Assembly: GCA_011390345.1 (NCBI GenBank)
Contig: JAABSP010000019.1
Span: 1 to 59,474 of the forward strand
Source of the DNA: Desulfobacteraceae bacterium
GTDB taxonomy: Bacteria; Desulfobacterota; Desulfobacteria; Desulfobacterales; JAABSP01
Direction of reading: 5' to 3'
DNA: 59,474 nucleotides
Shown here: positions 1,094 through 46,035 of the stretch, in pieces
How positions within the stretch are numbered: the stretch's first letter is position 1
Layout of the letters: each line of letters starts with the position of its first letter
Made by a program: the position numbers and the translations under genes
Notes under the pieces: model-generated
What the model was told of the DNA's origin: nothing
The model's database searches: none
What the model saw: the letters and a program-made list of their open reading frames with translations, nothing else

Positions 1094-3210
1094 TGGAGCT
1101 GCGGGACAACGACGAAACCCACAAGTACATGCTCATGCGGGGTCGTTATTCCTATTTGCGCGATATTTTGTATGACCGGATGACCAAAATCATCGGCTCG
1201 CCCAACAATATTTCCCACAGTTCCATCTGCGCAGAAGCGGAAAAGTTCGGCCCCTACTATACCGAGGGTTACTGGGGGTATCGGCAATATGATGTGCTGA
1301 AAGCGCACTACATCCTGTTGTGGGGCGCCGACCCATTGGCGGCCAATCGCCAGGTTTCCTATTATTCCAAGGTTTGGGGCGATGTTGTCGGCAAGGCGAC
1401 CATCGCCATTGTCGAGCCCAGACTCTCCGCTTCGGCCGGCAAAGCAGATGAATGGCTCCCCATCATACCCGGACAAGACGGGGCCCTGGCCGTGGCCATC
1501 GCCCATATCCTTCTGGTACAGGGGCTCTGGTACAGACCCTTTGTGGGCGATTTCACGGACGGCGTCAACCGGTTTGTCCCGGGCAAGACCGTCGATGAAT
1601 CAGGCTTTGAAGAGATATATACCCATGGAGTTGTCAGATGGTGGAATCTGGAACTCAAGGATAAAACGGCCGAATGGGCGGCCGACATCACCGGTTTGCC
1701 GGCGGAACAGATCCAGCGGGTGGCCGAAGGTTACGGCAATGCCGCGCCGCACGCCATTTCATGGGTGGGCGGCGGCCCCTGCATGCAGGTTCGCGGCGGG
1801 TATTCCAGCATGGCCTGTCACGCCTTGAACGGCCTTGTGGGGGCGGCTGACAATGTGGGCGGCACCCTGGTCAGCAACAAGGAGTACACCGGCAAATTTC
1901 CGGCTCCGGACGAATTTATGGACGAGATCGCCAAGAAAGGAAAAAAACACGAAAAAATCGACCAGCGAGGCCGCCTTCATTTACCGGCCATCAAATCCGG
2001 AAAGCCCGGCAGCGGGGTGGTCACCAACAACGCGGCCGACGGCATCCTGAATGAAGACCCTTACGACATCAAAGTGGCCATCGGCTACATGAACAATTTT
2101 TCGTTTTCAGCGCCCCAGCCCGAACGATGGGAAAGGGCCTTGTCCAAAATCCCTTTTCTGGTGCATATCACCACCAATGCGTCGGAGTTTTCCTGGTTTT
2201 CGGATATCGTGCTGCCGGACACCCACCATATGTTTGAAAAATGGGGCTATGTCAAATCGATCGGCAATGGCTATCGCCACGTCACCCTGATGCAGCCGAT
2301 CGTCAAAAACGTCTGGGACTACAAGATCGACGAAACCGAAATCCCCTGGTTGATCGCGGAAAAGCTGGCCCAAAAGGGATTCGACAATCTGTTGCGTCAC
2401 TTCCAGACATACCAGGACCCGGAAACGGGAAAAGCGCCGGCCGACGAAAAGGAGTTCGCCCTCTACGCCCTGAAACTCGTGACCCAAAACCTGTGGGACC
2501 CTTCACAATACAAAGGCGGCGACAAATTCAGCGGGTGGGAGGAATTTTCCAAAATAGGCGTTTGGAACTCCGACCCTTACCCCTTCCGAAAGCGATGGGG
2601 CAACATGAAGACCAAAACGGGGATGTTCGAGTTTTACAGCGAAACCCTCAAGGCGGCCCTGCAAAGCCACGCCGCCAACCACGGCGTCACGGTGAACGAA
2701 GTCATGAAAGCCACCAATTACCTGGCCCGGGGAGAGACCGCGTTCATTCCTCATTATGAAGAACCCTTTACTCTGGGTGACGAGAAAGAATATCCGTTTG
2801 TGCATGTGGACCATAAATCCCGCCTCAATCGCGAGGGACGTTCCGCCAACTGCACCTGGTATTATGATTTCAAAGACCTCGATCCAGGGGAAGAGCTGTG
2901 GGCCGACGTGGCCAAAATCAACCCCATCGACGCGCGCAAGCTGGGCATCGAAAGCGGGGACCGCATCAAGATCACCTCGCCCACCGGCAGTTTGATCTGC
3001 ACCGCCAAACACTGGGAAGGGGTGCGTCCCGGGACCGTGGCCAAGTGTTTCGGCCAGGGCCATTGGGCCTATGGACGGCTGGCGTCGGAAGAATTCGGCA
3101 AAAAGCCCCGGGGCGGCAACAATAACGACATCATTCCGGCACAGTATGAGGCATTGAGCGGCAGTTCCGCATACTATGGCGTAACGCGGATTAAAATCGT
3201 GAAGATATAA
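1093..3210 (+). CDS. arrA: Respiratory arsenate reductase large subunit ArrA, catalytic part (frameshifted)
   Basis: These 705 residues carry the molybdopterin-binding and C-terminal domains of a DMSO-reductase-family enzyme; joined to the upstream part the protein is about 860 residues, the usual ArrA size. Residues known from the Shewanella ANA-3 ArrA structure as arsenate or Mo ligands are present in the right spacing: R18-Y19 (G-R-Y-S), S43 and Cys46 in S-P-N-N-I-S-H-S-S-I-C-A-E, K51, and Y63 in G-Y-W-G-Y. The motif V-G-D-F, used for arrA primers, is also present. ArrA reduces arsenate to arsenite in the periplasm with electrons from ArrB. An unnamed close relative (arsenite oxidase ArxA or another substrate) is possible. 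It is 10 bases upstream of arrB. Confidence 0.75.
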   Translation: MELRDNDETHKYMLMRGRYSYLRDILYDRMTKIIGSPNNISHSSICAEAEKFGPYYTEGYWGYRQYDVLKAHYILLWGADPLAANRQVSYYSKVWGDVVGKATIAIVEPRLSASAGKADEWLPIIPGQDGALAVAIAHILLVQGLWYRPFVGDFTDGVNRFVPGKTVDESGFEEIYTHGVVRWWNLELKDKTAEWAADITGLPAEQIQRVAEGYGNAAPHAISWVGGGPCMQVRGGYSSMACHALNGLVGAADNVGGTLVSNKEYTGKFPAPDEFMDEIAKKGKKHEKIDQRGRLHLPAIKSGKPGSGVVTNNAADGILNEDPYDIKVAIGYMNNFSFSAPQPERWERALSKIPFLVHITTNASEFSWFSDIVLPDTHHMFEKWGYVKSIGNGYRHVTLMQPIVKNVWDYKIDETEIPWLIAEKLAQKGFDNLLRHFQTYQDPETGKAPADEKEFALYALKLVTQNLWDPSQYKGGDKFSGWEEFSKIGVWNSDPYPFRKRWGNMKTKTGMFEFYSETLKAALQSHAANHGVTVNEVMKATNYLARGETAFIPHYEEPFTLGDEKEYPFVHVDHKSRLNREGRSANCTWYYDFKDLDPGEELWADVAKINPIDARKLGIESGDRIKITSPTGSLICTAKHWEGVRPGTVAKCFGQGHWAYGRLASEEFGKKPRGGNNNDIIPAQYEALSGSSAYYGVTRIKIVKI

Positions 3211-3220
3211 GGAGGAAAAA

Positions 3221-3946
3221 ATGCCCAGATATGCCATGGTCATCGACCGTCAACGATGCGTCGGATGCGGCGCCTGCAGCATAGCTTGCAGAAATGAAAA
3301 CAACTTGTCCGAGGGGGTGTACTGGTCCCACAAGATTACCGAAACGTCCGGCGTTTTTCCAAATGTCCGGTTTCATTACCTGCCGACGCTTTGCAACCAT
3401 TGCACCGACGCACCCTGCGTCAGGGGATGCCCCACCAGGGCCATGCATAAAGCGGAAAACGGCATTACCATGCATGCCCCCAAAAAGTGCATCGGCTGCC
3501 GATACTGCATGATCAACTGCCCCTATGGCGTGATCTATTTCAACTGGAAAGAGTCCCACCAGTTCTGGAAGAACAAACAAGTCCTCATACCGGAGGTGAC
3601 ATCGTCGCCCGTGGAAGAGACGCGCAAAGTCGGCGGCACGGTTATCCCCTACTACAACCCGGAGCGGGAAGCGACCCTGGCCGGCATCCGACCCAAAGGG
3701 GTTGTGGAAAAATGCACCTTCTGCGACCATCGTATTGAAAATGGCCTGCTGCCGCGCTGCGTCGAGGCCTGTCCCGCGGATGCAAGAATATTCGGAGACC
3801 TCAACAACCCCCAAAGCAACGTGAATCATCTTTTGGGGAAATTCAAGCCCTTTCGGTTGCAAGAAGCCTTGGGCACCGATCCGGCGGTCTATTATATCAG
3901 GGATTTCAGCGCATCCAATTATCCCAGAACGAAAGGAGCAGTCTAA
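3221..3946 (+). CDS. arrB: Arsenate reductase iron-sulfur subunit ArrB
   Basis: A 241-residue ferredoxin-like subunit with four cysteine clusters in the order typical of the DmsB/PsrB/ArrB family: C-V-G-C-G-A-C-S-I-A-C near residue 13, C-N-H-C-x4-C-x3-C-P near 59, C-I-G-C-R-Y-C-x3-C-P-Y near 87, and C-T-F-C-x12-C-x3-C-P near 167. It should carry four 4Fe-4S clusters that pass electrons from the membrane subunit to ArrA. It has no signal peptide, so it would be exported together with ArrA by the Tat system. The ATG follows AAGGAGGAAAAA, a very strong ribosome site. Its stop overlaps the next start (TAATG), implying coupled translation with arrC. Confidence 0.85.
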   Translation: MPRYAMVIDRQRCVGCGACSIACRNENNLSEGVYWSHKITETSGVFPNVRFHYLPTLCNHCTDAPCVRGCPTRAMHKAENGITMHAPKKCIGCRYCMINCPYGVIYFNWKESHQFWKNKQVLIPEVTSSPVEETRKVGGTVIPYYNPEREATLAGIRPKGVVEKCTFCDHRIENGLLPRCVEACPADARIFGDLNNPQSNVNHLLGKFKPFRLQEALGTDPAVYYIRDFSASNYPRTKGAV

Positions 3947-5055
3947 TGAAGTCGAAAATCTGGTTCGGCATTCTCGGTGTAGGCATTCTCCTGGGTCTCT
4001 GGACAGCCTTCAGAGTCTATACGGTGGGGTTTTCCCTTTACGCCAAAACCGATGTTCTGGTCTGGACGCTTCCGTTGTCAACCTATATTTTTTTCAGTCT
4101 GACAAGCGCAGGCCTGGCCTTTGTATCTTCAATCCCGGTCGTTTTCGGCGTTCACCGGTACGACATCATCGAAAAGCGCACGGTTTACCTTGAAATCGCG
4201 GTCCTTCTCGGCTCCTTTGTGTGCCTCATACTGCATATCGGATCGCCTTTGAAGGTCATCTACATTTTCCTTTCCCCCAACCCCTCATCGCCTCTCTGGT
4301 GGCTGGCGATGCTCTACCACGTTTACCTTGTGGCCCTTTTAATCGCCTTCTGGCGGATTAACATCGGAAAGGTCAGCAAACCCATCGGAATCATTGTTTT
4401 CCTGATCGCGATCGGCACATCCACCACCCTGGGATGGTTGATGGGCATGACCGACGCGCGCCCGTCATTGAACGCTTCCTTTTTTTCGGTCTATTTTCCC
4501 CTCACCGGCTTCGGCTCCGGAATCGCCGCGCTGCTGTTGGTCAGCCTCGTTTACGAGCAGTTGCGGGGCCCGACCGGGTCAGACAAATTAGCCGAACTGT
4601 ATAACGAACTGGCCCGGATCATGGGCATGATCGCCGGCGTGGTGCTTATTCTTTTCTTATGGCGGACCATCGTCGGCGGAATATCGTCCACTTCAGAAGA
4701 TTTGCGCGCCTTCCAGCACATGATCGGGTCCATACCTTATCACATCGAACTCTGGCTGGGGCTTGTCGTTCCGGCTGTTTTAATGCTGATACCGCAAATC
4801 CGCAAAACCAGCCGGGGAAAAATTGCGGCCGGTTTTCTATTTCTGCTGGGCATGTTCGCGGGTCGGTTGGAGTTCGTTTTGAGCGGCGTCATCCGCCCCC
4901 TTGGTCAAATGACGGAAGGCCGCCCGGAATTCGTCAGTTATATGCCGACAGCTTACGAGGTCTTCGTAACCCTGGCCGGTTTTTCGGTCATGTTGCTGGT
5001 TTACACGTTAGGGGAACGCTATTTCAATCTCCATGCGACGCCGGAACAGAGATGA
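3946..5055 (+). CDS. arrC: NrfD/PsrC-type membrane anchor subunit ArrC
   Basis: A 369-residue polytopic membrane protein with about ten hydrophobic segments beginning with I-W-F-G-I-L-G-V-G-I-L near the N-terminus. Features of the NrfD/PsrC family are the position after an ArrB-type ferredoxin and the pattern of paired helices with conserved charged residues. It would anchor the complex in the cytoplasmic membrane and oxidise menaquinol without haem. No CymA-like cytochrome gene is nearby, so this subunit is the likely quinol entry point. It overlaps arrB by one base. A strong terminator follows 11 bases after the stop codon. The name arrC depends on the assignment of the large subunit. Confidence 0.78.
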   Translation: MKSKIWFGILGVGILLGLWTAFRVYTVGFSLYAKTDVLVWTLPLSTYIFFSLTSAGLAFVSSIPVVFGVHRYDIIEKRTVYLEIAVLLGSFVCLILHIGSPLKVIYIFLSPNPSSPLWWLAMLYHVYLVALLIAFWRINIGKVSKPIGIIVFLIAIGTSTTLGWLMGMTDARPSLNASFFSVYFPLTGFGSGIAALLLVSLVYEQLRGPTGSDKLAELYNELARIMGMIAGVVLILFLWRTIVGGISSTSEDLRAFQHMIGSIPYHIELWLGLVVPAVLMLIPQIRKTSRGKIAAGFLFLLGMFAGRLEFVLSGVIRPLGQMTEGRPEFVSYMPTAYEVFVTLAGFSVMLLVYTLGERYFNLHATPEQR

Positions 5056-5066
5056 CGGGATGCATG

Positions 5067-5115
5067 GGGTTTCCCCCGGCGATCTCTGGCCGGGGGAAAC
5101 CCTTTATTTTTTTAC
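5067..5115 (+). terminator. Perfect intrinsic terminator between arrC and arrD
   Basis: Two 14-base arms, 5067-5080 and 5089-5102, pair perfectly around an 8-base loop and are followed by TTTATTTTTTT. This is a textbook Rho-independent terminator. It sits between arrC and arrD, which run in the same direction only 85 bases apart, with no clear promoter after it. The chaperone would therefore be made only from read-through transcripts, which would lower its dose relative to the enzyme subunits. Confidence 0.9.
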
Positions 5116-5140
5116 ATCGATGACAAACGGAGTGAAGGCT

Positions 5141-5791
5141 ATGAACATGGAAGACCTGGCGGCTTATGAATCGATGCGGACCCAAGCCTACCGATTGTTC
5201 GCGGAGTGTTATCGCCTGCCGGAAACCGAGCTTGACAAGACCGTCGGGCGGTTGCGGCGGGAACTGGAGGGGATGGGATCGGCGTCATGTACGCCTGCGG
5301 AAAAGATGTACCAAGCCTGCGGCGCCGACCGGCTCGAAACGCTCAAGGTCGATTACGCGCGCCTTTTTGTCGGCCCCTATGGACTGCCGGCGGCGCCCTA
5401 CGGCTCAGTATATCTTGAAGAGGGTCGGAAAATCATGGGCGACTCCACCATCGACGCCCGCCGGATGTACATGGAGGCCGGCGTTGATATAGCTGCCGCT
5501 TGCAAGGATGCCCCTGACCATATCGCCGTGGAACTGGAATTTCTCCACCTGCTGAGTTTCCGGGAAGTGGAAGCGATGCGCCGGGGGGATATGAACGACG
5601 CGGCACTGATGATTGGGGAGCAAGCCGCGTTTCTGGCCCGTCACCTCGGTCTTTGGGTGGAACCGTTTGCGAGATCGGTTGAAAAGGCGGCCGAGACGGC
5701 TTTTTACCGAAGCCTGGGCGAGGCGACGCGGATTTTCGTCCTGGAGGATCAGGATCGGATTGCACGGGGCCCATCCGGATTGTTTCGCTGA
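5141..5791 (+). CDS. arrD: TorD/DmsD-family Tat proofreading chaperone ArrD
   Basis: A 216-residue cytoplasmic chaperone of the TorD family. The family signature is seen as P-D-H-I-A-V-E-L-E-F-L-H near residue 125, with the Y-x-x-L-F-V-G-P region ahead of it. TorD proteins bind the Tat signal and help insert the molybdenum cofactor into their partner, here ArrA. The start at 5141 was chosen because GGAG lies 8 bases ahead; an in-frame ATG at 5120 and a longer open frame through the terminator hairpin are less likely. It lies after a strong terminator, so its expression is expected to be lower than that of arrABC. Its 3' end nearly meets the convergent crcB. Confidence 0.82.
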   Translation: MNMEDLAAYESMRTQAYRLFAECYRLPETELDKTVGRLRRELEGMGSASCTPAEKMYQACGADRLETLKVDYARLFVGPYGLPAAPYGSVYLEEGRKIMGDSTIDARRMYMEAGVDIAAACKDAPDHIAVELEFLHLLSFREVEAMRRGDMNDAALMIGEQAAFLARHLGLWVEPFARSVEKAAETAFYRSLGEATRIFVLEDQDRIARGPSGLFR

Positions 5792-11165: not shown

Positions 11166-13607
11166 TCAATCCTCCCCGGTTTCCAACTCATCCGAATCAT
11201 CCGCCTCATCAGGAAAACCCCCACTCTTCTCCGGCGCATCCTCCAGCGTCAGCGGCAGCACCTCATCCATATGGCTCACCGGAACGAACTTGATCTTCCG
11301 CTTCACATTCATCGGAATCTCTGCCAGATCCTTTCTGTTCTTCAACGGCATGATCACCGTCTTCACGCCCCCCCGGACAGCGCCCATGGCCTTTTCTTTC
11401 AACCCCCCGATGGGCAGCACCCGGCCCCGAAGCGTAATCTCCCCGGTCATGGCCACATCCTTGTTGATCGCTCGCCCTGTCAGCGCGGAGATCAGTGCAG
11501 TGGCCATCGCGATCCCGGCCGAAGGCCCATCCTTGGGAATGGCCCCTGCCGGCACATGGATATGCATATCGGTACTCTCAAAGATCCGCTCATCAACCCC
11601 TAAAGATTCGATGTTGGCCCGCGCGTAGCTCACCGCGGCCCGGGCCGACTCCTGCATCACCTCGCCAAGCTGCCCCGTGATGATAAGATCCCCCTTGCCG
11701 CCGATCAGAGATGCCTCCACATAGAGGACCTCGCCTCCCACCTGGGTCCAGGCCAGCCCCGTGGCCAGCCCCACCTGGCTCTCCTCCTGATCCATCTCCG
11801 GCTGATATTCGGGAATCCCCAGAAATTTGGAAATATTCCCCTTTGTAATCACAAATGGCCCCTTCTCCTTCTCCGCGATACGCCGGGCCACCTTCCGGCA
11901 GAGGGTCCCCAGTTCCCGCTCCAGGTTCCGCAATCCGGCCTCGGAGGTATACTCCTGAATGATCTGCATCAACGCATTGGTGCTAATGGAGATCTGCTTC
12001 GGCTTCAGGCCGTTCTCCTTGATCTGCCTTGGAAGCAGATACTCTTCGGCAATCAGCCGCTTCTCCTCTTCGGTATATCCGGAGAGATGGATCACCTCCA
12101 TACGGTCCAGCAGCGCCGAGGGAATCGTATCGGTATGGTTGGCCGTAAGGATGAACATCACCTTTGAAAGATCAAAGGGCAGATTGATATAGTGATCTGA
12201 AAAGGCCACATTCTGCTCCGGGTCCAGCGCCTCCAGCAGTGCAGATGACGGGTCCCCCCGGAAATCGGAGACCAGCTTGTCGATCTCATCCATCATGAAG
12301 ACCGGATTGTTGACCCCGGCCGTCTTCAACCCCTGTAGAATCCGGCCCGGCAGGGCCCCGATATAAGTCCGCCGATGCCCCCGGATCTCGGCCTCATCCC
12401 GAACCCCGCCCAACGAGATCCGGACGAACTTCCGCTTCATGGCCGATCCAATGGCCCGCCCCAGCGAGGTCTTCCCCACCCCGGGCGGCCCCACAAAGCA
12501 GAGAATGGGCCCTTTCATCCCCGGGTTGAGCTTCCGCACGCTCAGATACTCCAGAATCCTATCCTTGATCTTCTCCAGCCCGTAATGGTTCTTGTCGAGG
12601 ATCTCCTTTGCCCGCTTGATATCGAGCACATCCTTGGTCGATTTGCTCCAGGGCATCTCCACCAGCCAGTCCAGATATGTCCTGACAATGGAGGACTCTC
12701 CGGAATCGGGATGCATCTGCTCCAGCCGGCGAAGCTGCTTCTGGGCTTCGTCCTCGGCATCCTTGGGCATCTTGGCCTTTTTGATCTTCTTGGTATACTC
12801 CTCGACCTCCTGGATCTTCTCGTCATACTCCCCCAGCTCCCGGTGGATAGCCCTGACCTGCTCCCGAAGATAGTAATCCCGCTGGGTCTTGGAGATCTCC
12901 TCTCTCACATCCGACTGGATCTTGGCCTGTATGGCAGAGACCTCCACTTCTTTGGAGAGGAAATCGTTCACCTTCTTCAGCCGCTCCACCGGATCGAGAA
13001 TCTCCAAAACCATCTGGGACTCATCGAGCTTCAGGTTGAGATTGGAGGCCACCAGATCGGCCAGTTTTCCCGGGTCTTCGATGCTCTCCAATATGGAACT
13101 CACCTCCCCGGTCATCTCTCCCCGGAGGGCCAGAATCTTCTCGGAGTACTCCCGGACATTGCGCATCAGCGCCTCCAGCTCGACACTCGACGATTCGGCC
13201 TCGGGCTCTTCCAGCAATTCAACCTTGACCTTGTAGTAGACCTTCTTTCTGGCGTACTCGACGATCCTGGCCTTGGTCACCCCCTGCACAAGGGCTTTGA
13301 GGCGGCCGTCCGGCAGTTTCAGCATCCGGAGCACCCGGCCCACGGTTCCCACCCGGTAGATCTGGTCCGGCTTCGGATTCTCGACATTCGGGTCCTTCTG
13401 GGTGGCCAGCATCAGATAACTATCATTGGCCACGGCCTCTTCCACGGCTCGCACCGATTTGTCCCGGCCCACAAAAAGAGGCAGGAGCATATCCGTAAAA
13501 ATCACCACATCCCGCACCGGCATCAGCGGCATGGTCTCGGGAATGTCGGTATCCTGCTCCTCCTCCTCGATAATGCTGATCAGATCGTCCCTGTCCGTTT
13601 CCGCCAT
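11166..13607 (-). CDS. lon: ATP-dependent protease Lon
   Basis: 813 residues, the normal bacterial Lon length. Order: N-terminal substrate-recognition domain (P-L-M-P-V-R-D-V-V-I-F start), coiled-coil linker, AAA+ domain with Walker A G-P-P-G-V-G-K-T-S near residue 375 and Walker B F-M-M-D-E-I-D, then the protease domain with catalytic Ser in K-D-G-P-S-A-G and Lys in G-G-L-K-E-K-A. It degrades misfolded and regulatory proteins in the cytoplasm. The acidic tail (E-S/D-D-E rich) is longer than usual. A sigma-70 promoter lies about 70 bases ahead; no heat-shock element was recognised. Confidence 0.97.
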   Translation of the reverse strand: MAETDRDDLISIIEEEEQDTDIPETMPLMPVRDVVIFTDMLLPLFVGRDKSVRAVEEAVANDSYLMLATQKDPNVENPKPDQIYRVGTVGRVLRMLKLPDGRLKALVQGVTKARIVEYARKKVYYKVKVELLEEPEAESSSVELEALMRNVREYSEKILALRGEMTGEVSSILESIEDPGKLADLVASNLNLKLDESQMVLEILDPVERLKKVNDFLSKEVEVSAIQAKIQSDVREEISKTQRDYYLREQVRAIHRELGEYDEKIQEVEEYTKKIKKAKMPKDAEDEAQKQLRRLEQMHPDSGESSIVRTYLDWLVEMPWSKSTKDVLDIKRAKEILDKNHYGLEKIKDRILEYLSVRKLNPGMKGPILCFVGPPGVGKTSLGRAIGSAMKRKFVRISLGGVRDEAEIRGHRRTYIGALPGRILQGLKTAGVNNPVFMMDEIDKLVSDFRGDPSSALLEALDPEQNVAFSDHYINLPFDLSKVMFILTANHTDTIPSALLDRMEVIHLSGYTEEEKRLIAEEYLLPRQIKENGLKPKQISISTNALMQIIQEYTSEAGLRNLERELGTLCRKVARRIAEKEKGPFVITKGNISKFLGIPEYQPEMDQEESQVGLATGLAWTQVGGEVLYVEASLIGGKGDLIITGQLGEVMQESARAAVSYARANIESLGVDERIFESTDMHIHVPAGAIPKDGPSAGIAMATALISALTGRAINKDVAMTGEITLRGRVLPIGGLKEKAMGAVRGGVKTVIMPLKNRKDLAEIPMNVKRKIKFVPVSHMDEVLPLTLEDAPEKSGGFPDEADDSDELETGED

Positions 13608-13682
13608 TGTCTCTTTTACACCTCAGTTCTTTCTATTCAGTCTTTTTCGTTCCTGCCCGACTGCTTTATGCGTAAATAATTT

Positions 13683-13710
13683 ATTATATGACAGGAAAGC
13701 TCTTTGGCAA
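13683..13710 (-). promoter_or_regulatory. Sigma-70 promoter of lon
   Basis: On the minus strand TTGCCA (13705-13710) and a perfect TATAAT (13683-13688) are separated by 16 bases. Transcription would start near 13676, about 69 bases before the lon start codon. The surrounding AT-rich stretch supports it. Assigned by eye only. Confidence 0.6.
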
Positions 13711-13808
13711 CCTGTTTGACAACATTGGCCTTGATTTTTTCCGCTAATCAGCCTACTCTTCTCTTTAATAAAACTCTTTACCCGTCAACGCAAGAGGGCC
13801 GCCATAAA

Positions 13809-14591
13809 ATGATCGACTTTCCTATCGGTTTCATCGCTTTTCTCTTCGGGCTTGCCATCGGAAGCTTCTTGAACGTCTGCATCCATCGGATTCCCCTGTC
13901 CCAGTCCATTGTGACGCCGCGCTCCAGATGTCCCGGATGCGGCCAGCCCATACGCTCCATCGACAATATTCCCCTGATCAGCTATACGGTTCTGGGGGGG
14001 AAGTGCCGCACCTGCCGGACCCCCATCTCCCTTCGCTATCCCTTTGTGGAGCTGCTGACGGGCCTCTTTGCAGCAGCAGCGGTATGGCGCTTCGGGTTCA
14101 ACATCACCGCCCTGGTCCACTACGCCTTCATCTGCGTGCTGATCGCCATCACCTTCATCGACATCGACCATCGGATCATCCCGGATATGATCAGCCTGCC
14201 GGGGATTCCGGTCTTTTTCTTCGCGTCCCTGCTTGTTCCCACAATAACAATAAAGGCTTCGATCCTCGGCATCCTCATCGGAGGCGGAAGTCTGTTCGCG
14301 GTGGCTTGGGGATACTACCTGCTGACCGGCAATGAGGGAATGGGGGGCGGTGATATCAAGCTTCTGGCCATGATGGGTGCGCTGATCGGCTGGAAGGGGG
14401 TTCTTTTCACCATCTTTGCGGGATCTGCCACCGGAACCCTGGTGGGGATTTCGGTGATGCTCTATCAGCGGGGAAACATGAAGCTGGCCGTTCCCTTCGG
14501 CCCCTTTCTGGCCCTGGGGGGCATTCTCTATCTCTTCTTGGGGCCCGAAATCATGGAATGGTACTTCAACCTGATGAAGACCCCCTACTGA
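13809..14591 (+). CDS. pilD: Type IV prepilin peptidase / N-methyltransferase (PilD/GspO)
   Basis: 260 residues of an integral membrane aspartic protease. An N-terminal helix is followed by the zinc-type cytoplasmic loop C-P-G-C ... C-R-T-C, then the first catalytic Asp in F-I-D-I-D-H-R and the second in the G-x-G-x-x-D motif G-M-G-G-G-D-I-K-L-L. It cleaves the leader of type IV pilins or type II secretion pseudopilins and methylates the new N-terminus. The start with A-G-A-G-G-G upstream was preferred to an in-frame ATG 35 codons earlier, which adds an unrelated leader. No pilin genes lie near it. It is divergent from lon. Confidence 0.93.
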   Translation: MIDFPIGFIAFLFGLAIGSFLNVCIHRIPLSQSIVTPRSRCPGCGQPIRSIDNIPLISYTVLGGKCRTCRTPISLRYPFVELLTGLFAAAAVWRFGFNITALVHYAFICVLIAITFIDIDHRIIPDMISLPGIPVFFFASLLVPTITIKASILGILIGGGSLFAVAWGYYLLTGNEGMGGGDIKLLAMMGALIGWKGVLFTIFAGSATGTLVGISVMLYQRGNMKLAVPFGPFLALGGILYLFLGPEIMEWYFNLMKTPY

Positions 14592-14607
14592 CGGAGAAAT
14601 AAACTTC

Positions 14608-14627
14608 CGGCTCTCTTTACAGAGCCG
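14608..14627 (-). terminator. Hairpin at the 3' end of the TMEM43-like gene
   Basis: CGGCTCT (14608-14614) and AGAGCCG (14621-14627) form a 7-bp stem with a 6-base loop, overlapping the last codons of the minus-strand gene. On that strand a weak T-containing stretch follows. It lies between two convergent genes. The poor T-tract keeps confidence low. Confidence 0.4.
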
Positions 14628-15765
14628 ATTCAGAGCCCGGATCCTGAACCCCGGGCAGCATCCGCATACCGGCCAGCACTGCAACCGCGGCCGTCAGCAG
14701 CACTGCCGACAGAATGGGCCGGGCAATGAACCAGGTGATCGCGATGGTCATAAAGCTGAGGGCCACGGCCATCATAAACGCGGTGATGGAATTCTTCATC
14801 AGCAGCCAGAGACCGCCCCACATCATCAAAAGTCCCAGGCCCCGAATGCCCCATGTGACCAGTACATTCTCCTCGGGCGCCTTCCGGAGGATGTGTTCCG
14901 GGCTGTGTGCCCCGGTCTTCAGGAGCATCAGAGGGCCCGACGCGGCAGGATAGGGCCGAAAGGTATTTCCCGTCTGCTGGGCCACCACGGTTACGGTAGT
15001 GGGCTCCACAACGCTGTATCCCACCCGGATGTCTCCGACTTCCGGCCTTCCCGGGGCGGCTCCGAAAAAGAGTTCTCCCTTATCCAGAATCGCCTGATAC
15101 CGGATCTCCGGCGGCAATTGCTCACGGTCTGTCTCGGAGAGTGTCATGGGCCGGAACCGGTCCAACTGCTCCACCAGCCGCGGGGGAAGAAAAAATGCCC
15201 CCAGCGTCACTCGTTGAGCCGTGGCCTTCCACCGGGCAAAGGGCTGGAACCCACGGCCCTCGGGGTCAACCGCAATCAGTGAGCGGTTGATTTCGCTCTC
15301 CGGTTCAAACCAGATCCCCCGGCCACCCTCCTGGCCTTGGCCGATCACCGCCTCATCCGGTTTCTCATCCGGTTTCTCATCCGGTTTCTCATCCGGCTTT
15401 TCCGCAGCGGGTTTGTAAATCCGGACATTCCGGCGGATGCGGAGGGCATTGGCCGAGATCCCATAGATTGGGTCCATCAGTATCTCGCCGGTGGTGGCAA
15501 GTCCTGTCAGATGGACCAGTTTTCCATCATTTGCCGGATCGATCCGGTCCATCCGGACCGATATTACGCCACTCTCTCCTACGCCGATGGACCGATAGAA
15601 CCGGACCGCGCGGCGTTCATTGAAGAAGAGCAGCACAAAAGCGCTCAGAAGGAGAAGAAGACCTGTGACCACGATATGCGCGGGTCGCCCTGCTTTTCTG
15701 CCCTCAGTTCCGCCGCCGTCCCTCTCCTCTTCCATCCATGCCTCTTGTGAAGCTTCCTGCACCAT
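14617..15765 (-). CDS. TMEM43-family (DUF1625) membrane protein
   Basis: About 382 residues. A first membrane helix near residue 30-50 (V-V-T-G-L-L-L-L-L-S-A-F-V-L) is followed by a large extracytoplasmic region, then three or four helices at the C-terminus, the layout of the TMEM43/LUMA family, whose bacterial role is unknown. The start ATG at 15765 has AAGGA seven bases ahead; a GTG nine codons upstream (15792) lacks a better site. The extracytoplasmic part contains a 4-fold K-P-D-E tandem repeat encoded by a 12-base DNA repeat. Nothing near it suggests a pathway. Confidence 0.75.
   Translation of the reverse strand: MVQEASQEAWMEEERDGGGTEGRKAGRPAHIVVTGLLLLLSAFVLLFFNERRAVRFYRSIGVGESGVISVRMDRIDPANDGKLVHLTGLATTGEILMDPIYGISANALRIRRNVRIYKPAAEKPDEKPDEKPDEKPDEAVIGQGQEGGRGIWFEPESEINRSLIAVDPEGRGFQPFARWKATAQRVTLGAFFLPPRLVEQLDRFRPMTLSETDREQLPPEIRYQAILDKGELFFGAAPGRPEVGDIRVGYSVVEPTTVTVVAQQTGNTFRPYPAASGPLMLLKTGAHSPEHILRKAPEENVLVTWGIRGLGLLMMWGGLWLLMKNSITAFMMAVALSFMTIAITWFIARPILSAVLLTAAVAVLAGMRMLPGVQDPGSESAL
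15352..15399 (-). repeat. 12-bp tandem repeat inside the TMEM43-like gene
   Basis: Four copies of CTCATCCGGTTT (plus strand), the last with one C-for-T change, encode a run of Lys-Pro-Asp-Glu units. Being a multiple of three, copy-number change would keep the frame and alter linker length. Confidence 0.9.
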
Positions 15766-40666: not shown

Positions 40667-40711
40667 GTCGCTTTACCTCAATTCTCTTCAAGAGATTGCG
40701 GAAATAAGTCG

Positions 40712-40740
40712 AATATGGTAGAGACGGGGAAAAATGTCAA
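40712..40740 (-). promoter_or_regulatory. Sigma-70 promoter of the Uma2-guaA unit
   Basis: TTGACA (40735-40740, minus strand) and CATATT (40712-40717) are 17 bases apart, with a start expected near 40705, some 39 bases before the Uma2 start codon. It probably also serves guaA and the coiled-coil genes. Confidence 0.62.
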
Positions 40741-41004
40741 CTCCATTTTCCGTTTTAAAGCATCAAAACCCTCTTCAAAGCCATCGATTACTTCCGGCCC
40801 CACATCCTCAATTTCTGCGAGGCCGTTACCCTGCAAAATGATGTTTTACAAACCGTCGAACCTCTGATAAAGTTACAGCAGGCCGTAAATGAATGATTGC
40901 AAGATGTCAAACCGGTGATCCGCCTGCAGAGAGTCAGGCCGTATCGCCGATCTTTATTTTAATTTTAGAAATGTTTTTTCAACATCAAGGAGGAAGTACC
41001 GGCA
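40741..41004. other. Intergenic stretch before efp
   Basis: About 260 bases between divergent genes. No open frame with a ribosome site, tRNA or riboswitch was recognised. The last 60 bases are AT-rich and presumably hold the efp promoter, but no convincing -35/-10 pair was identified. Confidence 0.5.
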
Positions 41005-41568
41005 ATGTATGATACCAGCAACCTGAGAAAGGGCCTGAAGATCGAACTCGACGGAGACCCCTACATCATCACCCAGTTCGATTTCGTCAAACCCGGCAAG
41101 GGACAGGCCCTCTACAAATGCAAGCTGAAGAACATGGTGACGGGCGCGCAGTTCGACCGCACCTGGCGATCCGGGGAGAAGTTCAACGAGGCCAATCTCG
41201 AAGAGCGGGAGATGGAGTACCTCTACCAGGAGGGAAACACCTACTGTTTTATGGATACCTCAAATTACGAGCAGATCTTTCTCACCGAAGAGCAGGTCGG
41301 AGACGTAAAGAGCCTGATGAAGGAGAATACCGTCTGCCAGGTACTCTTCTTCGACGCCCGGGCCATCGGATTGACCCTGCCCAACTTCGTGGATCTGACC
41401 ATTACCGAATCCGAGCCCTGGGCCAAAGGAGACACGGCCGCCGGCAGCACCAAGCCCGCAACTCTGGAGACGGGCCATGTGCTTCAGGTTCCGCCATTTG
41501 TCAACGAGGGGGAGAAGATCCGGATCGACACCCGCACCGGCGAATATGTGGAGCGGGTCAAGGAATAA
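41005..41568 (+). CDS. efp: Elongation factor P
   Basis: 187 residues in the three-domain EF-P arrangement. The domain I loop reads K-P-G-K32-G-Q, with Lys at the modified position, as in the EpmA-type or unmodified EF-Ps. The C-terminal motif I-D-T-R-T-G-E-Y-V-E-R is diagnostic. It relieves ribosome stalling at polyproline. The start follows AAGGAGGAAGTACCGGCA, a strong site. No epmA/epmB gene is present nearby. It precedes the DUF362 gene by 45 bases. Confidence 0.96.
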   Translation: MYDTSNLRKGLKIELDGDPYIITQFDFVKPGKGQALYKCKLKNMVTGAQFDRTWRSGEKFNEANLEEREMEYLYQEGNTYCFMDTSNYEQIFLTEEQVGDVKSLMKENTVCQVLFFDARAIGLTLPNFVDLTITESEPWAKGDTAAGSTKPATLETGHVLQVPPFVNEGEKIRIDTRTGEYVERVKE

Positions 41569-41613
41569 AAATCAGGAACAGACATTGATTCAATCCTTTG
41601 ATATAAATCAGAT

Positions 41614-42600
41614 ATGGAAAAATCAAATTTCAATCGACGCGCCTTTATACTCCGGCTTTTGAAGGCCGGCGGGGTAATCGCCGGGGCCGGGGCAGCAGGT
41701 TTTCTATTCTATGATCCCAATGGCCTGCCCCGGCCGGGACAGGAGATGGCCGGGGTCTATCTTCCCGATTTTTCCCTTCCGGAACAAAAAGGGAAAATGG
41801 CGGTTGCGCACGGCTCAGACCGGGAGAAGACTCTTCGGGCCGCGCTAGATGCTATTGGCGGGATGAAGGCATTCGTTCAAAAAGGGGATCGGGTGGTCTT
41901 GAAGGTCAATGCCGCGTTCGCGTCTCCGGCCGCCATCTCCGCGACAACCCATCCGGATCTGGTCGAAGCTGCGGTCCGCGTCTGCTTCGAAGCTGGGGCC
42001 GCATCGGTGATCGTCACCGACAACCCCATCAATGATCCGGCAAGCTGCTTCTCCTTAACCGGCATCGGGCCTGCGGCAAGGTCATCCGGGGCAGAAGTGA
42101 TGCTGCCCCGAGAGGATCTGTTCCGGCCCGTCACTGTTCCGGGCGCGAAGCTGATCAGAAACTGGCCTCTGCTCTATGGACCATTCGCTTCGGCCAACAA
42201 GCTGATCGGGCTGGCCCCGATCAAGGACCATCACCGATCCGGGGCATCCATGACCATGAAGAACTGGTACGGCCTTCTGGGAGGGCGGCGGAACATCTTC
42301 CACCAGGATATCCACACCACCATCACGGAACTGGCCCAGATGGCAACCCCCACGCTTGTGATTCTGGACGGAACCGTGACCATGATGCAGAACGGCCCCA
42401 CCGGCGGCTCCTTTTCCGATCTGAAGCCGACGCAGACCATGATCGTCTCCACGGACCCGGTCGCGGCCGATGCCTTTGGCGCGACGCTTCTGGAACGGAA
42501 GCTTTCGGAACTGCCCCACATCGGAAGAGCCGAAGCGGCCGGGGTCGGAACCGCGGATTACCATTCTCTGTCTCCTGAAATCCTTTCGAACATCTCATGA
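41614..42600 (+). CDS. Tat-exported DUF362 protein
   Basis: 328 residues. A twin-arginine signal, N-R-R-A-F-I-L-R, and a hydrophobic G-V-I-A-G-A-G-A-A-G-F open the protein. The rest is DUF362: V-V-L-K-V-N-A-A-F, then A-T-T-H-P-D-L-V, T-D-N-P-I, and K-D-H-H-R-S-G-A-S-M-T-M-K-N-W near residue 205. DUF362 proteins occur beside or fused to ferredoxins in anaerobes; their chemistry is not established. Here there is no ferredoxin motif of its own, but the next gene overlaps by four bases and codes for a multi-cluster Fe-S membrane protein, a likely partner. Confidence 0.85.
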   Translation: MEKSNFNRRAFILRLLKAGGVIAGAGAAGFLFYDPNGLPRPGQEMAGVYLPDFSLPEQKGKMAVAHGSDREKTLRAALDAIGGMKAFVQKGDRVVLKVNAAFASPAAISATTHPDLVEAAVRVCFEAGAASVIVTDNPINDPASCFSLTGIGPAARSSGAEVMLPREDLFRPVTVPGAKLIRNWPLLYGPFASANKLIGLAPIKDHHRSGASMTMKNWYGLLGGRRNIFHQDIHTTITELAQMATPTLVILDGTVTMMQNGPTGGSFSDLKPTQTMIVSTDPVAADAFGATLLERKLSELPHIGRAEAAGVGTADYHSLSPEILSNIS

Positions 42601-44411
42601 AGATCACAACTGTCCGACGCATCAGCCAGACCTTTTTCCTGCTGCTCTTCTTCTGGTTCTGTTTTGTCATGACCCTGGGAGAGCGGTGGCATCAGCTCCG
42701 GGGATGGCCCGTGAACTGGTTTCTGCAGCTCGATCCGCTGGCGGCTCTGGGAACCCTCGTCACGACCGGAACTCTGTTTCGGGGGATGGTCTGGGCCGTC
42801 GTCACCATCGCGCTCACCGCGCTTTTGGGCCGCTTCTTCTGCGGATGGCTCTGCCCCTTCGGAACCCTGCACCAACTGATCGGCTATCTGGCCCATCGGA
42901 AAGAGAAGACCCTTGCCCGCGCGGCCGTTAATCAGCCCCATCGGGCCCAGCGGATCAAATACTACATTCTGATCGCGATGCTCGCCGGGGCCGCGCTCCA
43001 TCTGCTTCCCTTCGCGGATTCGGCCTCTCTGCAGACTGGGCTTTTGGACCCGATTCCGCTGCTCTACCGCTCGGTCAATCTGATACTGCTCCCGTTTGCC
43101 GATGGTGCCGGGCTGCCCGTATCCCCCCTGCCCCGCTTCTATGAAGGCGCTTTTCTCATCGGGGCCATCTTTCTCACTGCTCTTTTTGCCAATCTCTGGA
43201 TTCCCCGGTTCTACTGCCGATTCGTCTGTCCACTGGGTGCGCTCTTCGGCCTCATCTCCCGGTACAGCCTCTTTCGGATGGGGCAGCGGGAGAGCGCGAA
43301 ATGCACCCAGTGCCACATGTGCGAGAAGAACTGCGAGGGGGCCTGTGCGCCCGGGGATACGATCCGCATCCATGAGTGCGTCCTCTGCATGAACTGTCTG
43401 CACACCTGCCGCCAGGCCCGGATGACCTACAGCACGGCTCTGTCGGCCCAAGGGGAGATCCTCTCCCCGGATCTTAGCCGCCGGGGATTTCTCATTTCAG
43501 CCGCAGCGGCCGGGGCAGCCATCCCTTCCATGCGCCTCAGTGGCGCACTCGCGGCCAACTGGAACCCGAACCTAATCCGCCCCCCCGGGGCTCTGGCCGA
43601 GGCCGATTTCCTGAGCCGATGCATCAAATGCGGCCAGTGCATGCGGATCTGCCCCACCAACATCATCCATCCGGCAGGGTTGTTCGAGGCCGGATGGGAG
43701 GGGATCTGGACCCCGATCCTCAACTACCGGATCGGCACCAGCGGATGTCAGAAGAACTGCATCGCGTGCGGCAACATCTGCCCCACGGCCGCGATCCGGC
43801 CCATCACCATCGAAGAGCGGCTCGGAACCGGCGCGTTTGCAGAGCAGGGCCCCCTGAAGACCGGAATGGCCTTTGTGGACAGGGGCCGCTGCCTCCCGTG
43901 GGCCATGAACCTGCCCTGCATCGTCTGTCAGGAGAACTGCCCCGTCAGCCCCAAGGCCATTGTCACCGATACGGTATATGCCCTGCTCCATGAAATGGAG
44001 ATCATTGAGGCAGACGGCAATACACTGGAACTGAAGGGAAAGCTCGAGCCGGGCCAGGCCGCGACCGGGGACTATTTCTGTACGATCAGGGGAAGGGGAA
44101 TCGGAAAAGAAGGAGAGAGCGAAGGGGAGACAGGTAACGGACAACATGGGGCCGAAGAAGAGGGCGGCGGACGGATTCGGATCACGGCCAACACCGAAAG
44201 CCGCCTGACACTGGAGCGGAAATGGGATTCTTCCCCGTCCCCCCGCGAGACCGCACAGATCCGAATCCGGCTTCAGCGGCCTGTTATCGCAGTTGACCGG
44301 TGCATCGGATGCGGCATCTGTGAGCATGAGTGTCCGGTGCGGGGATTGCGTGCGGTTCGAGTCACCGCGGAGAATGAATCCCGGAATGAAGAGCATCTGT
44401 TGCTGCTGTAA
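42597..44411 (+). CDS. NapH-NapG-like fusion iron-sulfur membrane protein
   Basis: 604 residues. The first half resembles NapH/CcoG-type quinol dehydrogenases: membrane helices with F-C-G-W-L-C-P (81-86) and Y-C-R-F-V-C-P (207-212), then ferredoxin clusters C236-x2-C-x2-C-x3-C and C261-x2-C-x2-C-x3-C. In the middle is a twin-arginine stretch, S-R-R-G-F-L-I-S-A-A-A-A-G (294-306). The second half is NapG/MauM-like, with clusters near 342, 384, 441 and C569-I-G-C-G-I-C-E-H-E-C-P. A low-complexity Gly/Glu segment (505-525) precedes the last cluster. It may pass electrons from quinol to periplasmic proteins such as the DUF362 partner. ATGA overlap couples the two. Confidence 0.85.
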   Translation: MKITTVRRISQTFFLLLFFWFCFVMTLGERWHQLRGWPVNWFLQLDPLAALGTLVTTGTLFRGMVWAVVTIALTALLGRFFCGWLCPFGTLHQLIGYLAHRKEKTLARAAVNQPHRAQRIKYYILIAMLAGAALHLLPFADSASLQTGLLDPIPLLYRSVNLILLPFADGAGLPVSPLPRFYEGAFLIGAIFLTALFANLWIPRFYCRFVCPLGALFGLISRYSLFRMGQRESAKCTQCHMCEKNCEGACAPGDTIRIHECVLCMNCLHTCRQARMTYSTALSAQGEILSPDLSRRGFLISAAAAGAAIPSMRLSGALAANWNPNLIRPPGALAEADFLSRCIKCGQCMRICPTNIIHPAGLFEAGWEGIWTPILNYRIGTSGCQKNCIACGNICPTAAIRPITIEERLGTGAFAEQGPLKTGMAFVDRGRCLPWAMNLPCIVCQENCPVSPKAIVTDTVYALLHEMEIIEADGNTLELKGKLEPGQAATGDYFCTIRGRGIGKEGESEGETGNGQHGAEEEGGGRIRITANTESRLTLERKWDSSPSPRETAQIRIRLQRPVIAVDRCIGCGICEHECPVRGLRAVRVTAENESRNEEHLLLL

Positions 44412-44475
44412 GAGGGGGAAGTAAGGGCAAAGGCAAAGGAGGGGCCGGAACAAGGGCTGGGGCGCCTGGGTTCGT

Positions 44476-45081
44476 TCAGGAATCGGACGAGGGCCTCTTT
44501 TTTACTCTCCCCTTTTTCCGTTGCTCCTCGATCCTCTTTTTCGCCTTTTTCCGGGCCAGCCTCTCCTTCTGCCGCGCCAGCTTTGCCCGGATTTCGGCCT
44601 GATACTTACAGATGGCCGTATAGGAGAGGAAGTAGCCGGCCAGTGCGATGGGCAGCCCGATAATTATACCGCCCAGGGTCAGGGTCCAGAGGATCTCCGG
44701 TGCTTTGGCGATGTTTGCCAGAAAATGGGCAGATTCAATGCTCTGTGCCGAAGGCGGCGTCCCCCTGATCCCCATCATTTCCGCGCCGGCCATGTAGGTG
44801 ATGGTGTAGAGAAAGGGGGCTGTAACGGGATTTGAGATCCAGACACCGATCGCGGCAGAGATCTTGTTCCATCCCAAAAGGCTGGCCGCAAAAACGGAAA
44901 CAGCGGTCTGAAACCCCATATAGGGCGAGGTTCCGACAAAAATGCCCAGTGCGAAACCGAGCGCGATCTCCCGTGGCTGCCCTCTGATCTTTACCAGTCG
45001 TTCGTAGGCTTTATGTAAAAGAGCCTTAAGCCGGCCCTTTTTCTGCGTGACAGTTTCGTTTTTTTTCTCTATATCTTCCAT
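44476..45081 (-). CDS. DUF2062 membrane protein
   Basis: 201 residues. Three to four membrane helices include the DUF2062 signature G-Q-P-R-E-I-A-L-G-F-A-L-G-I-F-V-G and W-I-S-N-P-V-T-A-P. The C-terminus is a long basic tail (K-K-A-K-K-R-I-E-E-Q-R-K-K). DUF2062 is often attached to glycosyltransferases but stands alone here. Function unknown. It is convergent with the Fe-S fusion gene and divergent from the phosphatase gene. Confidence 0.85.
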   Translation of the reverse strand: MEDIEKKNETVTQKKGRLKALLHKAYERLVKIRGQPREIALGFALGIFVGTSPYMGFQTAVSVFAASLLGWNKISAAIGVWISNPVTAPFLYTITYMAGAEMMGIRGTPPSAQSIESAHFLANIAKAPEILWTLTLGGIIIGLPIALAGYFLSYTAICKYQAEIRAKLARQKERLARKKAKKRIEEQRKKGRVKKRPSSDS

Positions 45082-45237
45082 AAGAGATGAGATATTTTAC
45101 TTCAGATGGTTCATCATAGATGATCCGGGCAGATATGGATCGGGCAAAAGGGTCTTTTAAAGGATAAATTCTCCTTTTGCAAGACCTTTCCATCTGATAC
45201 AGTACCTCTTTTTAACCATAGACACGCTGGAGGAAGA

Positions 45238-46035
45238 ATGGCAACTGGAATGGGGAACGCGGTGGGAGAACTGAAGGATTTTGCAATGGAGATGATCCGC
45301 CAGTGCGGAGAGAAGGCCATCTCCTATTACGGAAAGGGAAAGCACACCATGAAGTTCGATGAAAACCTCATCACCGAGGCCGAACTCGATCTGTCCGATT
45401 ACTTCAGGGATCAACTGAAAAAGAGATTTCCCGAGCACAGCCTCTTTCCCGATTCCATCGAAGAGAACGGCTACACCCATGAGGAAAAAAGATATCTCTG
45501 GATCTTCGACCCTTTGGACGGCGTGGCCAACTTCCAGGCCGGCATCCCGCTATGGGGGATCTCGGTCGCGCTTTTTGAAAACTACTGGCCCCTCTTCGGC
45601 ATCTTCCACATGGCCGCAACCGGGGACCTATTCCGGGCCGATGCCGGGGCCGAGGCATTCTGGGGAGATCAGCCCATCACGGTTTCCGATCAGGAGCGGA
45701 TCAGCGACGAGACCCTTCTCTTAACCTTCTCCCGCTTCCACCAGCATTACAGAACCGCTTTTCCCGGCAAAGTCCGAAACCTGGGCTGCACCGGCGCGCA
45801 CCTCTGTTATGTGGCCATGGGCCGGGCCGAGGCCGCAGTGATCGCTAATGAATCCTACCGGGAGCTGGCCGCGGCATCGGTGATCGTCCGCTCCGCGGGG
45901 GGGCGGATCTATCGGATGGACGGCTCCGAGTTTTTCCTCAGCGAGTATCTGGAAGAGGGGAAATCCCCGGAGCACCTTATCGTGGCCCCCCCGAAAACCC
46001 ATCTCCAGTTCCGGAAATATCTGGAAAGGATCTGA
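45238..46035 (+). CDS. Divergent inositol monophosphatase family protein
   Basis: 265 residues of the IMPase fold. The second motif is present as F-D-P-L-D-G-V-A-N-F near residue 90, with Val for the usual Thr. The third motif, normally W-D-x-A-A-G, reads Y-R-E-L-A-A-A-S, so the metal-binding Asp is replaced by Glu or Arg. The first-motif acid is around P-D-S-I-E-E-N. It may act on a different substrate or be a poor phosphatase. The start has GGAGGAAGA upstream. It is 12 bases upstream of the GGDEF-EAL gene and probably in one operon. Confidence 0.82.
   Translation: MATGMGNAVGELKDFAMEMIRQCGEKAISYYGKGKHTMKFDENLITEAELDLSDYFRDQLKKRFPEHSLFPDSIEENGYTHEEKRYLWIFDPLDGVANFQAGIPLWGISVALFENYWPLFGIFHMAATGDLFRADAGAEAFWGDQPITVSDQERISDETLLLTFSRFHQHYRTAFPGKVRNLGCTGAHLCYVAMGRAEAAVIANESYRELAAASVIVRSAGGRIYRMDGSEFFLSEYLEEGKSPEHLIVAPPKTHLQFRKYLERI

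Follow-up and report, generated by a model that had tools for sequence, protein, structure and literature searches.

The stretch of DNA analysed here, hereafter the window, comprises 59,474 nucleotides of contig JAABSP010000019.1 in the assembly GCA_011390345.1 of a Desulfobacteraceae bacterium. It encodes a NapH-NapG-like fusion polyferredoxin with an internal twin-arginine motif and, directly upstream, a DUF362 protein with a signal of the twin-arginine translocation (Tat) type. In related genomes this pair recurs together with genes of a DUF6599 protein and a Tat-type aldo/keto reductase. The fusion is probably a polyferredoxin inserted by both the Sec and the Tat systems, linked to quinone and exchanging electrons with periplasmic partners. 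The partner set is the new part; the fusion type and its insertion are already known.

Fusion Protein and Its Coupling to the DUF362 Gene

The following features were identified (positions in the window):

41614–42600, + strand: DUF362 protein, 328 amino acids, Tat-type signal RRAFIL at residues 8–13 (open reading frame; Pfam DUF362, E 1.9e-40)
42597–42600, + strand: ATGA overlap of 4 bp between the DUF362 stop and the fusion start (sequence)
42597–44411, + strand: NapH-NapG-like fusion polyferredoxin, 604 amino acids (open reading frame and profile matches; cysteine sets for about seven putative 4Fe-4S clusters)
42597–43445, + strand: NapH-like membrane half, residues 1–283 (CX3CP at C82/C86 and C207/C211; two more cysteine sets within residues 236–271)
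43479–43538, + strand: internal twin-arginine motif (RR 295–296) and weakly hydrophobic helix, residues 295–314, ending in the conserved P310-x-x-R313
43557–43970, + strand: NapG-like ferredoxin half, residues 321–458 (three conserved four-cysteine sets)
44301–44336, + strand: fourth four-cysteine set of the C-terminal half, C569–C579 (cysteine conservation)

Residues 3–283 of the fusion match NapH (NF007013, E 3.8e-21), and the best stretch of its match to NapG (NF007012, E 5.3e-20) covers residues 294–458. The NCBIfam equivalog cut-offs are not reached (75.4 vs. 234 bits for NapH, 71.7 vs. 269 bits for NapG), and therefore ‘NapH-like’ and ‘NapG-like’ are the right labels for the two halves. 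The stretch RRGFLIS starts at residue 295, with the RR codons at 43479–43484; three cysteine sets precede the motif and four follow it, all invariant or nearly so in the 81-row alignment described below. The number of clusters and the membrane side of each cysteine set are read from the sequence and are to be taken as putative. The AlphaFold2 model places a helix at residues 295–314. Through the ATGA overlap, translation of the DUF362 gene and of the fusion gene may be coupled. Open reading frames, profile matches and overlap confirm the preliminary description of the window, which had noted a NapH-NapG fusion with an internal RRGFLIS stretch coupled to a Tat DUF362 protein.

Conservation of the Twin-Arginine Motif and the Fifth Hydrophobic Segment

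Relatives were taken from titled genome records; the best 80 of the 263 found and the window protein make up an alignment of 81 rows. The twin-arginine position reads RR in 72 rows and KR in nine, with an invariant second arginine, and the motif is thus beyond chance. The preliminary description had made its interpretation depend on the conservation of RR in homologues, and the result is in its favour. The fifth transmembrane domain (TMD5) falls below TMD1 in Kyte–Doolittle hydrophobicity in 80 of the 81 rows (Tooke et al. 2017 used another scale), the columns of residues 311–330 contain one to four lysines or arginines in every row, and P310 and R313 are nearly invariant.

Five of the KR loci (L060, L075, L080, L089 and L090) contain genes of pyruvoyl-dependent arginine decarboxylase and agmatinase in a shared neighbourhood; L060 is the one in which the families were checked. 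The DUF362 gene never directly adjoins the fusion gene in them, lying 3.6 kb away in L060. Three of the nine KR proteins are encoded in loci without DUF362 within 4 kb (L080, L084, L089, L090 and L091).

The same architecture was described by Tooke et al. (2017; eLife, PMC5449189) for the MLMS-1 protein Q1NSB0, termed a NapH-NapG fusion and assigned to the polyferredoxin (PFD) family. Judging from the published description, in Q1NSB0 too the fifth hydrophobic segment is immediately preceded by RR, and both proteins have three and four Fe-S cysteine sets in the two halves and positive charges behind a TMD5 of low hydrophobicity. P310/R313 of the window fusion correspond to P355/R358 of Q1NSB0, the P-x-x-R pair affected by the leucine substitutions reported there. 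According to that paper, fusions of the MLMS-1 homologue to MBP and AmiA required the Tat system and the twin arginines for export, not for membrane insertion, and the handover from Sec to Tat is governed by the low hydrophobicity of TMD5 and the positive charges behind it. Sec-then-Tat insertion of such fusions is therefore already published, and the candidate of an undescribed insertion mechanism was rejected. The comparison with the Rieske protein had also been drawn there: the actinobacterial Rieske protein follows the same Sec/Tat logic according to PMC5449189, but it belongs to another protein family with another cofactor, and two Sec-inserted TMDs precede its Tat-dependent one. The earlier proposal that Tat translocates the C-terminal half in a Rieske-like manner agrees with the conservation of the motif and of TMD5, but it is not novel.

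Conserved Gene Set Around the Fusion

The DUF362–fusion pair, whose conservation had been suggested as a check in the preliminary description, is widespread: the DUF362 gene lies within 4 kb upstream of the fusion gene in 52 of 57 loci with at least 4 kb of upstream DNA, and within 400 bp in 59 of 74 loci with at least 1.1 kb. Of 50 loci with at least 5.9 kb of upstream DNA, 46 have the gene of the DUF6599 protein (PF20244) no more than 6 kb upstream; a hydrophobic N-terminal segment is present in 54 of 57 DUF6599 rows. The aldo/keto reductase gene follows within 3 kb in 55 of 64 loci with at least 3 kb of downstream DNA. Among the 48 loci for which 4.5 kb upstream and 3 kb downstream are available, 40 contain all four genes, for DUF6599, DUF362, the fusion and the Tat aldo/keto reductase, at any position (neighbour families Pfam-checked in L039 and L040). 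The cultured Desulforhabdus sp. TSK (L076) is one of the carriers of all four genes. The genome to which the window belongs keeps all four genes in three places: one DUF6599 gene is located on contig C87 and one close reductase gene on C141, both away from the window, and only the DUF362–fusion pair is still adjacent. The reductase gene on C141 (L121:2408–3664) follows a gene resembling that of penicillin-binding protein 1C, as named from its translation.

Six Planctomycetes-type loci contain an extra gene between DUF362 and the fusion, which encodes a DUF4832 protein in L040, L053, L062 and L070 (Pfam-checked in L040) and a PHP-type hydrolase in L110 and L113 (checked in L113). The gene tatC was found near the cluster in 12 Planctomycetes-type loci, including L040, L053, L055, L062, L066 and L070 (Pfam-checked in L040, assigned by similarity cluster in the others); six of the tatC loci also contain a small tatA-like gene, so that a Tat translocase is encoded beside a cluster rich in Tat substrates. 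Downstream of the fusion in L062, L070 and L073, at least two genes of aldo/keto reductases with Tat signals are located in a row or nearby.

No paper on the set of DUF6599, DUF362, fusion and reductase, nor on the coupling of DUF362 to the fusion, was found in the literature searched, in which subscription journals are thinly covered. The accessible text of PMC5449189 does not mention DUF362 and gives no gene neighbourhood for the polyferredoxin; PMC9012536, in its accessible part, deals with separate NapH homologues of ANME archaea, not with this fusion or gene set. Of the ‘undescribed electron-export module’ of the preliminary description, the topology had thus been published (PMC5449189), while the coupling to DUF362 is the part on which no paper was found. 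Among known systems, the quinol dehydrogenase NapG/NapH is matched by both halves of the fusion, and a relay from quinone to the periplasm is likely common to both. Unlike NapG/NapH, the window fusion is one polypeptide scoring far below the equivalog cut-offs, and its partners are DUF362, DUF6599 and the aldo/keto reductase. The dual-inserted polyferredoxin has served as a model of Sec-to-Tat handover, and no physiological partner is assigned to it in the literature searched. With three exported or anchored proteins recurring beside it, a role that can be tested emerges, and DUF362 and DUF6599, families named as of unknown function, gain a redox setting.

Co-Occurrence in Genomes of the Phylum

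A sample of 198 genomes of the phylum was examined, in which fusions matching at E ≤ 9.1e-127 were regarded as the ‘close’ type (13 genomes; G016, with E 1.7e-114 and a frame of 511 residues, was excluded). The reductase was found in 14 genomes, 12 of them in common with the close fusion (Fisher p 2e-16, uncorrected for kinship). The DUF6599 protein is encoded in 53 genomes, among them all 13 with the close fusion.

The genome G187, not counted as close type, encodes the reductase beside a damaged locus. In this 13-kb stretch (L129), an apparent deletion joins the start of DUF6599 to the later NapG-like half; DUF362 is gone and the reductase is kept. The gene set is present in G162, which belongs to the same genus. 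A natural split of the fusion in G187 was considered and rejected; the frames suggest a deletion from DUF6599 into the NapG half.

A distant fusion type is common, making up most of the 94 genomes that match at E 1e-40. Of 20 stretches inspected, 18 hold the distant type, and the DUF362 gene was found near it in 15 of these 18. In L133 and L148 another open frame lies between DUF362 and the fusion; in L136 and L138 DUF362 was not recognised, having been missed by greedy gene picking, yet it adjoins the fusion in the same genomes (L033 and L036). In the stretch examined in L144, no DUF362 was recognised near the fusion.

Tat-Type Aldo/Keto Reductase

At least 97% of 63 reductase sequences conserve D101, Y106, K134 and H165, which we take to be the aldo/keto reductase catalytic tetrad, and the same holds for C337, C340, C344 and C400. 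A twin arginine occurs within the first 70 residues in 61 of the 63. The spacing of the cysteines suggests a [4Fe-4S] site, and the reductase beside a distant-type fusion (L131) gave a weak match to a 4Fe-4S profile (Fer4_9, E 1.3e-4). The reductase of the window genome is 60% identical to that of L039. This protein is the plainest candidate for electron exchange with the NapG-like half, and a more obvious putative acceptor than the DUF362 protein, because it has four conserved cysteines while the DUF362 protein is without a cysteine cluster. The role of electron receiver, given to the DUF362 protein in the preliminary description, is accordingly unproven.

DUF362 Protein and Its Predicted LarA-Like Fold

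The twin arginine at residues 8–9 of the DUF362 protein is invariant in 67 aligned members. Residues K97, N99, D136, H206, K216 and H230 are conserved. No exception to H206, K216 or H230 occurs among the 67 close partners, nor in two other sets of 16 and 12 rows, of which 15 and 12, respectively, are not close-type and some come from the same genomes.

In the AlphaFold2 model (pLDDT 93.8), residues 66–297 are predicted to adopt the fold of the LarA N-terminal domain. The model's 12 best structure matches, all with model residues 63–298, are LarA-type (Z 14.9–17.1; the top match covers 207 residues at 3.0 Å), and the next fold has Z 5.6. Eleven of them are named lactate/malate racemase or LarA-like, and the twelfth, 4nar, was also found with a LarA sequence; Foldseek alone gave E 3.5e-5. 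DUF362 and DUF2088 belong to one Pfam clan, and DUF362 was used as the outgroup of a LarA tree, as reported in PMC11770544.

For profile comparison the DUF362 alignment was widened to 57 rows, of which 54 were used; it included two paralogues of the window genome, distant-type partners and every third close partner, while three frames picked in error (from L004, L005 and L006) were removed. Against 22 LarA sequences hhalign gave 42–57 with this alignment, 16–19 with the reversed profile and at most 23.6 with shuffles (30 column shuffles per seed). All three seeds pair H206 with LarA H175, the second catalytic histidine, and K216 with K185, the lysine anchoring the nickel-pincer nucleotide (NPN). 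With the paralogue L001 as seed, the Ni-binding histidine of LarA is also paired; this paralogue reads HELSGFGGAIK where LarA reads HYLAGFGGGRK. The lysine and the Ni-binding histidine of LarA are 16 residues apart, as in Lys183/His199 and Lys195/His211 (PMC12611868, where His211 is once printed as His221); a histidine at this spacing is present in L001, and the window protein has H230 at 14 residues from K216. Against the LarA-type register, the narrow-family profile gave another register with a probability of 9.7%. None of the 67 members matches Lar_N at E up to 1, and sequence comparison with either alignment retrieved no PDB chain at the thresholds used. In the profile alignment, LarA D72, R75 and H109 (L152 numbering) have no Asp, Arg or His partner in the window protein.

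Compared with LarA, the NPN-dependent lactate racemase, the DUF362 protein thus has counterparts of the N-terminal fold, the second catalytic histidine and the NPN lysine. Unlike LarA, it lacks the C-terminal substrate domain (328 amino acids in all) and a Lar_N match, and it carries a Tat signal. The likeness to LarA is kept as an anatomical result.

Proposed Function and Alternatives

We infer the topology of the window fusion, its reaction with quinone and the identity of its electron receiver as follows. Sec would insert the NapH-like half so that its Fe-S sites face the cytoplasm; the fifth, weakly hydrophobic segment would be released and then taken over by Tat via the internal RR motif, and the folded, cluster-loaded NapG-like half would end in the periplasm. 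Electrons would pass between the (mena)quinone pool and co-encoded periplasmic partners, namely the aldo/keto reductase exported by Tat, likely with a [4Fe-4S] site, and the DUF362 protein, LarA-like and also exported by Tat; the membrane-anchored DUF6599 protein may be a scaffold or a substrate-handling subunit. By analogy with NapGH, the direction may be from quinol to the periplasm.

Several points weigh against this scheme. The DUF362 gene is missing within 4 kb in 5 of 57 loci and the reductase gene within 3 kb in 9 of 64, and no partner is indispensable next door to the fusion. The genome G071 has the reductase without the close fusion, and G033 has the close fusion without the reductase; near the distant fusion type, reductase and DUF6599 were found in only 2 of the 18 stretches, both with DUF362. 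No Fer4 profile match was obtained with the close-type reductases scanned (those of the window genome, L039 and L040). To work in the periplasm, an aldo/keto reductase would depend on bound nicotinamide or on a different source of hydride. The AlphaFold2 model of the periplasmic half of the fusion is poor, with pLDDT mostly below 50 around the clusters. As far as PMC5449189 reports, Tat-dependent export applies to reporters on the membrane part of one homologue only.

Alternatively, DUF362 and DUF6599 could be assembly or metal-handling factors, e.g., for cofactor insertion or as chaperones of the Tat-dependent half, which would leave the reductase as the only redox partner. The missing cysteine cluster of DUF362 fits such a role, and so does the presence of DUF362 beside the distant fusion type, which mostly lacks the reductase; a dedicated accessory would be expected to behave in this way. 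However, a strictly conserved set of Lys, His and Asp on the fold of a LarA-type enzyme argues for catalysis, and both proteins appear from signal or anchor to face the periplasm, where cluster insertion would already be finished. We regard this explanation as unlikely.

Much less support remains for a transfer of electrons mainly to DUF362. In this reading, DUF362 would be a periplasmic LarA-like enzyme that receives Lys-tethered NPN, or a nucleotide cofactor of a similar kind, while still in the cytoplasm, is exported in folded holo form via Tat, and has its hydride recharged or discharged by the polyferredoxin. In favour of this reading are the structure matches, the hhalign values above controls with the pairing of H206 and K216 from three seeds, and the genes larE, larB and larC, adjacent on contig C28 of the window genome. 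Their profile matches in the locus L181 are as follows:

11921–12697: larE
12942–13562: larB
13639–14784: larC

LarA was not detected in this genome, which is 97% complete (no Lar_N match at E 0.001). About 15% of the genomes analysed in PMC11796402 are reported to have larBCE without larA. The window genome looks like one of this kind, and its DUF362 protein, with a predicted LarA-like fold and the Lys/His pair, bears on the question that such genomes raise. The locus L181 also contains two DUF362 genes about 6 kb from larE-larB-larC, one (3205–4722) with an internal Cys-rich insert and the other (4747–5778) without it.

Among the 198 genomes, LarC and DUF362 co-occur: both are present in 159, neither in 11, DUF362 only in 18 and LarC only in 10 (Fisher p 1.4e-5, uncorrected for kinship). 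LarC was found in all 13 close-fusion genomes, in G033 and G040 by partial matches, which says little because it is present in 169 of the 198 anyway. Fifty genomes from fusion loci were chosen beforehand (27 titled outside the Desulfobacterota/delta group and 23 of the other 53; completeness is not given for these records), and LarC was matched in 26 of them: 18 of the 23 Desulfobacterota/delta genomes and 8 of the 27 others. LarC is thus without a match in 24 of the 50, 19 of them outside this group, and DUF362 is nevertheless present at the locus in 20 of these 24; the records of L039 and L072, titled chromosome, contain all four genes and no LarC match. Barring a divergent LarC or gaps in the records, the module functions without NPN. 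The nickel-pincer cofactor is therefore unlikely to be general for the module. The other register of the narrow profile, the absent C-terminal domain and the unpaired D72, R75 and H109 of LarA also count against it, and electron transfer mainly to such a DUF362 enzyme is very improbable. DUF362 as a general NPN enzyme was largely given up as a candidate, and the nickel reading is a minority view. Equally slight is the chance that DUF362 proteins are the missing non-LarA users of NPN or a related Lys-tethered nucleotide cofactor, represented here by an enzyme that transfers hydride in the periplasm with a single His and is connected to the quinone pool via the dual-inserted polyferredoxin, with the Tat aldo/keto reductase as redox partner.

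That the internal RR is a relic, with both halves cytoplasmic or the C-terminal half cleaved off as a separate NapG-like protein, is scarcely to be expected: KR in nine rows and an AxA-like site after the helix of the window protein would suit it, but RR or KR occurs in all 81 rows, AxA-like triplets are found after the helix in only 20 of them, and the homologous PFD-MBP reporter was reported to be membrane-bound at near its theoretical mass (PMC5449189).

Neighbouring Genes in the Window

Promoter- and terminator-like sites in 40700–45300 show no excess over shuffles. An efp-like gene (41005–41568, named from its translation) is located 45 bp upstream of the DUF362 gene, and the next gene-like long open frame downstream of the fusion lies on the opposite strand at 44476–45081.

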